Of a DNA stretch of 64,000 nt, positions 43,553 to 61,314 are shown piece by piece (position 1 is the stretch's first letter; each line of letters starts with the position of its first letter). Source of the DNA: Kiritimatiellia bacterium (GTDB lineage: Bacteria > Verrucomicrobiota > Kiritimatiellia > CAIQIC01 > Lenti-01); contig JAQUJC010000003.1 of the NCBI GenBank assembly GCA_028681135.1, positions 16,263-80,262 on the forward strand. The letters are read 5' to 3'. The notes beneath the pieces were generated by a model. It saw nothing but the letters and a program-made list of their open reading frames with translations. It was not told the origin of the DNA and did no database searches. A program made the translations under genes and the position numbers.

Positions 43553-44710
43553 GTGATGACGATGAATATCGATAAAGGTGCGGTTTGGGTCCCCTTTAAC
43601 CTCATGGAACGCTTCATGCGCGACGTCTTCATTGGCCTGGGCTCGCCCAAAGCCGATGCCGCTATCTGCGCCAGCGTCTTGCTCAAGGCCGACCAGCTCG
43701 GGTTTGACTCCCACGGCATTTCCCGGCTCAAACCCATCTATTATGACCGCATCCGGGCGGGCATCCAACGGCCCGCCGCACCCATTCGCACCCTGCGCAA
43801 CCGCGGGGCCACCGCCGTTCTCGATGGCGGCAACGGGATGGGACACGTCGTGGCCCACAAGGCCATGAGCCTGGCCATTCAGAAAGCCAAAAAACACGGG
43901 CTGGGCATGGTCGCGGTACGCCACTCCACGCACTTTGGCATTGCCGGCTATTATCCCCTCATGGCGGTGAAGGCCGGCATGATCGGCATCTGCGGTACCA
44001 ATGCCCGCCCCTCCATTGCCCCCACGTTCGGCATCGAAAACATGCTCGGCACCAATCCGCTGACCTTCGCCATGCCCACCGACGAACAATTTCCGTTTCT
44101 GCTCGATTGTGCAACCTCGATTGTCCAGCGCGGCAAAGTCGAACTCCATGCCAAACTGAACCAGCCTCTGCCCCACGGGTGGGTCGTGGCGCACGACGGA
44201 ACCTCCCAGACCGATCCCCACGCGGTCTTGGCCGATCTCGTCGCGGGGTCAGCCGCCCTGCTGCCACTCGGCGGCGCGGGCGAAGACTTTGCCGGTTACA
44301 AAGGCTATGGTTATGCCACGGTCGTTGAAATCCTTTCCGCGGCCCTCCAGCAAGGTGCCTTCCTGCACCTGCTCAGCGGCATCGACAAAAAAGGCGCGCA
44401 AATCCCCTATCCCCTCGGGCATTTCTTCATCGCCATCGATATCGAGCATTTCACGCCCCTCGCTATTTTTCAGAAAATTGCCGGCACCATCCTGCGCCAG
44501 CTCCGTGCCTCGAAAAAAGCGCCCGGCCAGAAACGCATCTATACCGCAGGCGAAAAAGAATATCTCACCTGGCAGGAACGCCAAAAAAAGGGCATCCCCG
44601 TCAACCGCCAAACCCAGCAGGAAATGCTCGCCATGCGCGACGAACTGGGACTGAAAAAATACAAATTTTCTTTCGATAAGCCCCCCAAACGCCGCTCAAA
44701 AAAAACATAA
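43553..44710 (+). CDS. Malate/L-lactate dehydrogenase family oxidoreductase
   Basis: GFDSHGISRL, ATAVLDGGNGMGHVVAHKAM, VRHSTHFGIAGYYPLMA, TNARPSIAP. Confidence 0.9.
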   Translation: MMTMNIDKGAVWVPFNLMERFMRDVFIGLGSPKADAAICASVLLKADQLGFDSHGISRLKPIYYDRIRAGIQRPAAPIRTLRNRGATAVLDGGNGMGHVVAHKAMSLAIQKAKKHGLGMVAVRHSTHFGIAGYYPLMAVKAGMIGICGTNARPSIAPTFGIENMLGTNPLTFAMPTDEQFPFLLDCATSIVQRGKVELHAKLNQPLPHGWVVAHDGTSQTDPHAVLADLVAGSAALLPLGGAGEDFAGYKGYGYATVVEILSAALQQGAFLHLLSGIDKKGAQIPYPLGHFFIAIDIEHFTPLAIFQKIAGTILRQLRASKKAPGQKRIYTAGEKEYLTWQERQKKGIPVNRQTQQEMLAMRDELGLKKYKFSFDKPPKRRSKKT

Positions 44711-44760: not shown

Positions 44761-44784
44761 ACGCGGTTATTATAATAACCGCGT
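44761..44784. repeat. 24-bp perfect palindrome (pair 1, left)
   Basis: acgcggttattataataaccgcgt equals its reverse complement. Confidence 0.97.
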
Positions 44785-44870: not shown

Positions 44871-44900
44871 AGTGCGCGGTTATTATAATAACCGCGCACT
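44871..44900. repeat. 30-bp perfect palindrome (pair 1, right)
   Basis: agtgcgcggttattataataaccgcgcact equals its reverse complement. Confidence 0.97.
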
Positions 44901-44950: not shown

Positions 44951-45265
44951 CTACCGCTTGGGAGCGGCGTGGTCCGGTTTGGGTTCCGGGATATCCTGTG
45001 GTGGAAAATCAAAGTTAGTCTCGAACAGCTCGACGAGCCGGTCCGCCACCTGCGTTTCGTTCTCCCCGTCGACCCCAATTTTGACCGTACTGCCCTGATG
45101 CAATTCCAAGGATAGCAGTTGCATCACAGAACTCACATCACACGAACCGTGGCCGTTTGAAATCCGGATATTCCCAGGATACTCCAGGAATTCCTTGACG
45201 ATCAAGGCCGATGGGCGGCAGTGAATGCCCTGAGAATTGGCTATAATGGTTTCGCGTGTTTGCAT
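44951..45265 (-). CDS. ptsH: HPr-like phosphocarrier protein
   Basis: GIHCRPSALIVKEF active-site region; CDVSSVMQLLSLELHQGS. Confidence 0.85.
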   Translation of the reverse strand: MQTRETIIANSQGIHCRPSALIVKEFLEYPGNIRISNGHGSCDVSSVMQLLSLELHQGSTVKIGVDGENETQVADRLVELFETNFDFPPQDIPEPKPDHAAPKR

Positions 45266-50982: not shown

Positions 50983-51360
50983 GGTGCGCTCCTTCGGTCG
51001 TCGGCCAGAACGGGACCAGACAGCATCCGAAACCAGTCCACCCGTTTCGTTATATCAAGGAGGCGTCATCAGCTATATGCGGTTCGCCTGAGACAGGCCG
51101 GCAGACACCATTGCCGTGTGCGAATGAATGTAATAGCTGGTCTGAAAACTTCAAGCGGTATCTGTCCGTCGGGATTCGCGATTCCCGTGTTGACGGCTGA
51201 ATGGGCCCTCTGTTCGCTTCGCTCCATGCCATCGGCATGGCCCGCCCGCAGTCGCCCCGTGTTGCAAGACATTATGGAATTCCCGCTGCAACCCATCAAC
51301 ACCATTGGGTGTTTTCCGTGCTTTTCACTGAGACATGGATACCCTACCGTTCTCTTTCCT

Positions 51361-59723: not shown

Positions 59724-60245
59724 TCAGGCGATCTCCGCCCCGGAAGAAAGGTCCACATCGATCTCACAGCCCAGCATGATACTCTCATCGAACAGAAACC
59801 GCCCCGAAAACGGACGGCCCTCCAGCACCAGAGGATACCACAACCGGTCGTCGGCCCACATCTGGCTGTAGGGCATTTCGCGCTCATCCACCCACAGCGG
59901 AATGGCCTCGGTCGTCTCGGTGGGAATGCCTTCGTAGGATGCCGCCGTATACACGTGGCAGCGCAGCGAATAGCCATTCGTGAATTCAAACGCCAATTCG
60001 CCCGCTTTTTGGACCCCGATAGGCGTGACATGCAGCTCCTCCTGAATCTCCCGGATCGCGCCCTCCTCGGGTGATTCGCCGGGTTCCACCCGTCCGCCGG
60101 GGGCATTAATCAGCCCCGCCCCCATCCCCAGGAGCTTACGGATCAGCAGCACCATCCCATCCATGCGCACAAACATCAGCGTGGCCGTCTCGCGCGGCAC
60201 CCACGTCGACCAATCCATCTGCGTAAACTTTACATTACTCCTCAT
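59724..60245 (-). CDS. NUDIX hydrolase (8-oxo-dGTP diphosphatase-like)
   Basis: GLINAPGGRVEPGESPEEGAIREIQEELHV Nudix box. Confidence 0.88.
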   Translation of the reverse strand: MRSNVKFTQMDWSTWVPRETATLMFVRMDGMVLLIRKLLGMGAGLINAPGGRVEPGESPEEGAIREIQEELHVTPIGVQKAGELAFEFTNGYSLRCHVYTAASYEGIPTETTEAIPLWVDEREMPYSQMWADDRLWYPLVLEGRPFSGRFLFDESIMLGCEIDVDLSSGAEIA

Positions 60246-60402
60246 GATTAGTCCGTAATCTAACACGGAGCCCCCCTCGCGGGAAGCAAAAGCCCCCCGC
60301 AGCAAGAAAGGCAGGGAAATTCCAGAATATCCAGCCCAACTCGGACATCCCCAAAGGTCGTCCCGCCAAGCCCAGACCGAATGCGTAACCGTTTTCGCGC
60401 AT

Positions 60403-60432
60403 AATAACCGCTTATTATAATAAGCGGTTATT
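60403..60432. repeat. 30-bp perfect palindrome (pair 2, left)
   Basis: aataaccgcttattataataagcggttatt equals its reverse complement. Confidence 0.97.
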
Positions 60433-60593
60433 TCGACTGAGTACTCATCCTAAAGATGCCGCGGATATCATCATCCATCACACCCTACATGTCCTCAAAC
60501 TTCATGGTAATCATTTCTATCAAGCTCTCGCAGAACGAATAAAAGCGGACCATAAAATCTAGGGCCGAAGACATAATTGTCTTTAGATTTAAA

Positions 60594-60617
60594 AACCGCT
60601 TATTATAATAAGCGGTT
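60594..60617. repeat. 24-bp perfect palindrome (pair 2, right)
   Basis: aaccgcttattataataagcggtt equals its reverse complement. Confidence 0.97.
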
Positions 60618-60744
60618 ATTTCAACTGAAGGATGATACTGAAAATGCGAAGAAAGACGGTATCTCCCATTCTGTTCCCTACATGCCACGCTAGCCGGGAC
60701 GCCTCCCGACATGTCACCCTCCCCCCCCCTGAAAGAGGCCCAAC

Positions 60745-61314
60745 CTATTGCACGCGTTGGATGAAATCGCCGGTGCGGGTATCCACGCGAACGTGTTCGC
60801 CCGGTGACATATATTCGGGCACCTGGATCACCAGTCCTGTCTCGAGGGTGGCAGCCTTGGTTCGTGCCGTCACACTGGCACCGCGCATCGAGGGCGCGCA
60901 TTCTGCAATGCTCAACTCCACCGCATCCGGCATCTGAATGCACACCACCCGGCCGCTTTGCAACAGAGCCTTGATGCCCTCCATCCCATCCACCAGATAG
61001 GGAACGGCCTCCTCAATGTCGTTTTCCATCAGCTCGTATGGGGTGTAATCCTCCAAATCCATGAAGGTAAATCGCTCGCCCTCACGATAGCTATACGACA
61101 CCATGCGCGTCTCGAAATCGGATTCTTTCAGCGGGTCATCCCCCTTGAGCGTCTGGTCCAATTTGGCACGCGTGCGCACATTGCGAAACCGCACCTTGTA
61201 CAGCGTGGCAGCCCCGCGTGCCGACGGCGATTGCGTTCGCAAGTGCTCGACTACATGCGGGTCCCCATTGATTTCCACCACACTGTTTTTTGTCAAATCA
61301 CATGCTTTGATCAT
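60745..61314 (-). CDS. efp: Elongation factor P
   Basis: MIKACDLTKNSVVEINGDPHVVEH..., C-terminal STGDFIQRV-like end (TRTGDFIQRVQ). Confidence 0.93.
   Translation of the reverse strand: MIKACDLTKNSVVEINGDPHVVEHLRTQSPSARGAATLYKVRFRNVRTRAKLDQTLKGDDPLKESDFETRMVSYSYREGERFTFMDLEDYTPYELMENDIEEAVPYLVDGMEGIKALLQSGRVVCIQMPDAVELSIAECAPSMRGASVTARTKAATLETGLVIQVPEYMSPGEHVRVDTRTGDFIQRVQ

Follow-up and report, generated by a model that had tools for sequence, protein, structure and literature searches.

Two palindromes around 60.4 kb in a 64,000-nucleotide stretch of a Kiritimatiellia genome (contig JAQUJC010000003.1, positions 16,263 to 80,262; hereafter the window) share their central core, TTATTATAATAA, with a second pair at 44.8 kb. 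The arms enclosing this core are swapped between the two loci, CCGC/GCGG at 60.4 kb and GCGG/CCGC at 44.8 kb. This raises the question what these palindromes are and which protein, if any, tells them apart. Comparison with related genomes makes it likely that they are binding sites of proteins with two ArsR-type winged-helix domains per chain.

The positions of the palindromes, their identical core, the swapped arms and a right flank common to both 60.4-kb copies (TTATTTCRACTGAR) had been described in the original prediction and were confirmed in the sequence. The second 60.4-kb palindrome is perfect over 24 bp (60594-60617), with 14 of 15 pairs matching across 60591-60620. The cores of this pair are 188 bp apart; centre spacing of the 44.8-kb pair is 113. 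The core has exactly four matches in the window and none in 100 dinucleotide shuffles. Similarly, four of the five perfect palindromes with arms of at least 9 in the window are core palindromes, while shuffles yield 0-1. A 47-codon frame in the 60.4-kb spacer, taken for protein-like in the original prediction, had no Pfam match and no convincing homologue among 38 relatives (other matches E > 0.05), and is best explained as an open frame that arose by chance.

The palindrome family in this genome and in relatives

The draft genome (G000, 3.05 Mb) contains 20 exact copies of the core, which excludes that only the four sites of the window exist; the reversed control gave 0, and looser searches added further copies. 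Three arm classes are present in this genome: class A (AATAACCGC, at 60.4 kb), class C (AGTGCGCGG, at 44.8 kb) and class G (AGTCTCGG). The arms of class C can also be written GTGCGCGG, and those of class G GTCTCGG. The palindromes are often paired. Class G pairs have a variant, GTCTCACATATTATAATAACCGAGAC, as their second palindrome, located 78-79 bp from the first. One class G pair (G000:C1, L336:905-1010) carries an alternative core, TATAATTATA, in both palindromes, as if changed in concert.

Related genomes harbour pairs of their own. UBA8943 (G015) has 10 pairs, each spaced exactly 77-78 bp. Three members of the same taxonomic family share the inner core, but each has arms of its own, with ATTCTCAC in G002 (spacing 87), AGTCCCGC in G007 (spacing 77-98) and ACTTGCATG in G012 (spacings 64 and 75). 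Spacers have diverged and conservation is lost a few bases beyond the palindromes. Other exact 18-mer matches in the genome collection came mostly from unrelated phyla and lacked the arms. A viral scan gave five matches, none with family arms. No description of the palindromes and their regulators was found in the open-licence papers searched.

In two genomes a pair of intergenic copies with a family palindrome brackets ~3 kb with three genes: L052 of G000 (G000:C11:1800-8200; copies of 247 bp, 98 %) and L216:9598-13217 of G007 (345 bp, 92 %). Both arrangements look as if DNA had been inserted between two duplicates of a site region.

A tandem winged-helix protein for each arm class

The original prediction had proposed a structured family with arm-encoded specificity, which proved right in outline, since each of the three arm classes has one paralog of a single protein family. 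The gene of each ~190-aa paralog directly follows a palindrome pair of its own class (L053 for class A, L010 for class C, L012 for class G). G000:C51, the paralog of class A, lies outside the window, and the pair preceding it has the arms of the first 60.4-kb palindrome; the class C paralog is G000:C43. In G002 a 181-aa protein is encoded between two palindrome pairs, and its relatives in G007 (L212) and G012 (L220) are likewise found directly downstream of pairs with their own arms. A further palindrome, GTTCATTAATTATAATTAATGAAC at L058:1457-1500 (G000:C10), is similar to the one preceding the gene of a fourth paralog (L252), so dispersed copies may exist for additional paralogs as well.

The proteins, ~180-190 aa in length, contain two ArsR-type winged helices in tandem. 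Both halves match ArsR or winged helix-turn-helix (wHTH) models: NF033788 was matched over two stretches (E 1e-20 to 1e-25), and HTH_5, HTH_20 and MarR_2 scored above cut-off. The closest solved structures in the PDB are ArsR/SmtB chains. By profile search the family is present in at least 63 of the 346 genomes of the class, a lower bound, with nine candidates scored per genome and at least nine paralogs in the richest genome. A palindrome of at least 10 of 13 pairs (26 bp) was found within 230 bp upstream of 60 % of 63 family genes. The same criterion gave 0 % inside genes, 13 % downstream and 0.2 % in shuffled sequence.

Judged by sequence, the regulators belong to the ArsR superfamily, in an unusual tandem architecture. 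They resemble ArsR/SmtB regulators (HTH_5/HTH_20, NF033788; PDB 1r1t, 6uvu, 4k2e) in their predicted winged-helix fold and in the palindromic site preceding their own gene. However, ArsR/SmtB proteins have a single wHTH of ~100 aa per chain and act as homodimers, and do not share the 26-30-bp sites, dozens of which are dispersed away from promoters. Also unlike in ArsR/SmtB, arms and core are predicted, from covariation, to be read by different domains.

Proposed recognition of core and arms

Covariation was analyzed in 38 regulators whose genes are preceded by a clear palindrome. Core similarity tracks that of the N-terminal helix (r = 0.53, p = 0.0005) and not that of the C-terminal helix (r = -0.01), whereas similarity of the arms tracks the C-terminal helix (r = 0.34, p = 0.0005) and not the N-terminal helix (r = -0.10). 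This separation survives partial tests. Furthermore, regulator types predicted site types: TATAATTATA-core sites number 13, 10, 15 and 11 in the four genomes where a regulator of the TATAA type had been found, against 0-2 in six further genomes. The two halves of the palindromes vary independently within four genomes, which fits protein half-sites rather than a hairpin.

It is proposed that one monomer would read a half-site of 14-15 bp, its conserved N-terminal winged helix contacting the inner part (TATTA) and its variable C-terminal winged helix the outer arm, so that two monomers would occupy one palindrome of 28-30 bp. The 60.4-kb pair would then be a dispersed copy of the pair preceding G000:C51, and the 44.8-kb pair would belong to G000:C43. 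Co-occurrence, one paralog per class, covariation and context are directly supported at the level of sequence. The cognate pairing of protein and site is the safest part of this explanation, whereas physical binding of the proteins to the palindromes is inferred. Because the sites precede the regulators' own genes, they most likely serve autoregulation there.

Several points weigh against this explanation. The Mantel tests take related regulators as exchangeable, while paralogs are non-independent, and the palindrome chosen for each gene was the best-scoring one upstream. Pair spacings vary by class, from 64 to 239 bp, and a fixed complex on four half-sites is unsupported for classes A and C. 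UBA8943 (~66 % complete) has 10 pairs, and an adjacent AGTCTC-type regulator was not found. Mapping on draft genomes is a further weakness.

If binding by tandem-wHTH proteins is correct, the genomes would provide dozens of paralogous regulators, each paired with its own sites, as a natural set in which a two-part recognition code, N-terminal helix to core and C-terminal helix to arm, could be read and tested. It would also offer several orthogonal protein/site pairs for laboratory use, and raise the question why a bacterium retains tens of high-affinity-looking sites distant from promoters.

Location of the dispersed sites

Outside the regulators' own loci the sites are intergenic and enriched between convergent genes. 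Of 59 such sites, 23 are convergent, 32 codirectional and 4 divergent, against a background of 18, 63 and 21, respectively (p = 0.0045 and 0.023); this background comes from one 316-kb contig of one relative (G007) with a home-made gene caller, which also weakens the case. For 4 of 11 UBA8943 loci, a site locus of the congener G007 has the same two flanking genes but different arms; chance would give about 0.14, assuming 1000 intergenic regions. At the locus of the elongation factor P (EF-P) and NUDIX genes, which holds the 60.4-kb pair, G001 carries a palindrome of a different class, TGTCTCGGTTATAATTATAAGCGAGACT, between the same neighbours. Single shared loci in more distant genome pairs, EF-P/NUDIX included, are individually within chance. 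At least one UBA8943 site is missing from the orthologous place in G007. Conserved loci together with such an absence indicate that the sites are old but turning over.

The dispersed pairs could be the operators of an ordinary regulon, switching neighbouring genes. Sites indeed precede the regulators' own genes, the NUDIX gene has the 60.4-kb pair on its 5' side, and some loci are shared between species. However, convergent sites are in surplus and divergent sites few, and the conserved loci adjoin unrelated housekeeping genes without a common theme (adenylosuccinate lyase, NAD synthase, 5'-nucleotidase, histidine kinase, transporter). The mostly non-promoter intergenic context and the convergent surplus argue against most dispersed sites being operators, and an ordinary regulon is considered rather unlikely. 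The original prediction had also allowed for the core being a shared regulator motif in front of co-regulated genes; a regulator motif is indeed indicated, but most dispersed copies do not precede genes, and no theme unites the genes checked.

Alternatively, the palindromes might be chromosome-domain sites like parS or matS, grouped near the origin. In G007, 8 of 13 loci are on one 316-kb contig, which also contains the GC-skew minimum; one of these loci coincides with the minimum, and several loci are conserved between G007 and G015. Yet, as far as these draft genomes could be mapped, the sites of G000, G001, G002 and most of G015 were not placed in that region, and several arm classes exist within one genome. 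The data suggest a regional chromosome function in G007 only, and for the family as a whole this alternative is improbable. MatP/matS (PMC3330122) and ParB/parS do resemble the present system in that a single DNA-binding protein is matched with a few dozen palindromic sites, most of them away from promoters. They differ from it in an unrelated protein fold, and the palindrome family shows no consistent regional clustering across the drafts as far as mapped, and has several orthogonal classes per genome. A literature search for TubR-type centromere proteins yielded nothing.

Under binding by tandem-wHTH proteins, the dispersed copies are most likely protein-tethered extragenic sites, with an architectural, insulating or titrating role, rather than operators of neighbouring genes. 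More tentatively, each tandem-wHTH protein might keep its own orthogonal population of extragenic pairs. These pairs would hold their chromosomal positions from species to species, with sequences that change to match the protein, and such a system would differ both from a transposon family and from a normal regulon.

Mobile elements and RNA structures as unlikely alternatives

REPINs are palindrome doublets that copy themselves with a RAYT (Y1 tyrosine) transposase, and have the same doublet form with spacings of 71-110 bp (PMC3116915). The family doublets (~105 bp) resemble them in being extragenic, with conserved ends that stop sharply and spacers that have diverged, and in both systems several sequence groups occur per genome, each with one linked single-copy gene (Bertels and Rainey 2011, PMC3116915). 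Pairs are present or absent between congeners, and G000 has 14 Y1_Tnp matches, as REPIN-like mobility would allow. However, no family palindrome or half-site was found around the Y1 genes examined in G000, G001, G002 and UBA8943, in which, being drafts, a copy may have been missed. The lone Y1 gene found in UBA8943, with its 10 pairs, carries another repeat, GGAGCGCGGGC... Moreover, the spacers do not fold (mean z -0.2, -0.4, -1.1 and +0.7) whereas REPIN spacers form hairpins, the half-sites show no compensatory changes, a GTAG-type end tag is lacking, and the single-copy gene that tracks the palindromes encodes a tandem wHTH protein instead of a Y1 transposase. REPIN-like elements are therefore very improbable. 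The original prediction had looked to a transposase, an integrase or a DNA-binding protein as partner: the DNA-binding protein was found, one paralog per arm class, and the transposase or integrase was not, the Y1/RAYT genes having no adjoining family palindromes. The GGAGCGCGGGC... repeat (L139, G056:C270) is located inside and beside the UBA8943 Y1 gene and represents a RAYT/REP-like system independent of the palindrome family.

That the palindromes encode RNA hairpins, as terminators or mRNA stabilisers, is conceivable where perfect palindromes lie at the 3' ends of genes, yet highly unlikely, given no excess of pairing within palindromes over shuffled half-sites in four genomes, an invariant core sequence, no Rfam match at the sites and covariation with a DNA-binding protein. 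For dif/Xer sites, integron attC sites, IS200/IS605 ends and CRISPR-like repeats, considered without a formal test, neither a fitting anatomy nor an associated gene was noticed.

Features of the window and other motifs

The palindromes of the window and their flanking genes are listed in Table 1.

Table 1 Palindromes at 60.4 and 44.8 kb and neighbouring genes (window coordinates)
Feature	Position	Strand	Description
Class A palindrome 1	60403..60432	.	AATAACCGC-TTATTATAATAA-GCGGTTATT, 30 bp, perfect; full sequence AATAACCGCTTATTATAATAAGCGGTTATT
Class A spacer	60433..60593	.	separates both class A palindromes; holds the probable chance 47-codon frame without homologue
Class A palindrome 2	60591..60620	.	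AAAAACCGC-TTATTATAATAA-GCGGTTATT
NUDIX hydrolase gene	59724..60248	-	PF00293; flanks class A pair with its 5' side
Elongation factor P gene	60745..61314	-	PF09285, PF01132, PF08207; 3' side towards class A pair
Class C palindrome 1	44761..44784	.	ACGCGG-TTATTATAATAA-CCGCGT; same class as regulator at G000:C43
Class C palindrome 2	44871..44900	.	AGTGCGCGG-TTATTATAATAA-CCGCGCACT, 30 bp, perfect
Malate/L-lactate dehydrogenase gene	43553..44710	+	PF02615; 3' end towards class C pair
HPr-like gene	44951..45265	-	PF00381; 3' end towards class C pair, convergent

A separate palindromic motif, TTTCCACNNNRTGGAAA, occurs upstream of genes in clusters with a spacing of 22 or 31 bp (L001:1017-1127, L059 ~1770, L060 ~1800), with 42 copies in G007:C28 (L338-L353), 0 in shuffles and none in the window. 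It is also found directly after tandem-wHTH genes in G007 and G012. This motif probably represents the operators of a different regulator. Elsewhere in the window, a fluoride riboswitch (RF01734) is located at 51053-51124 on the minus strand.
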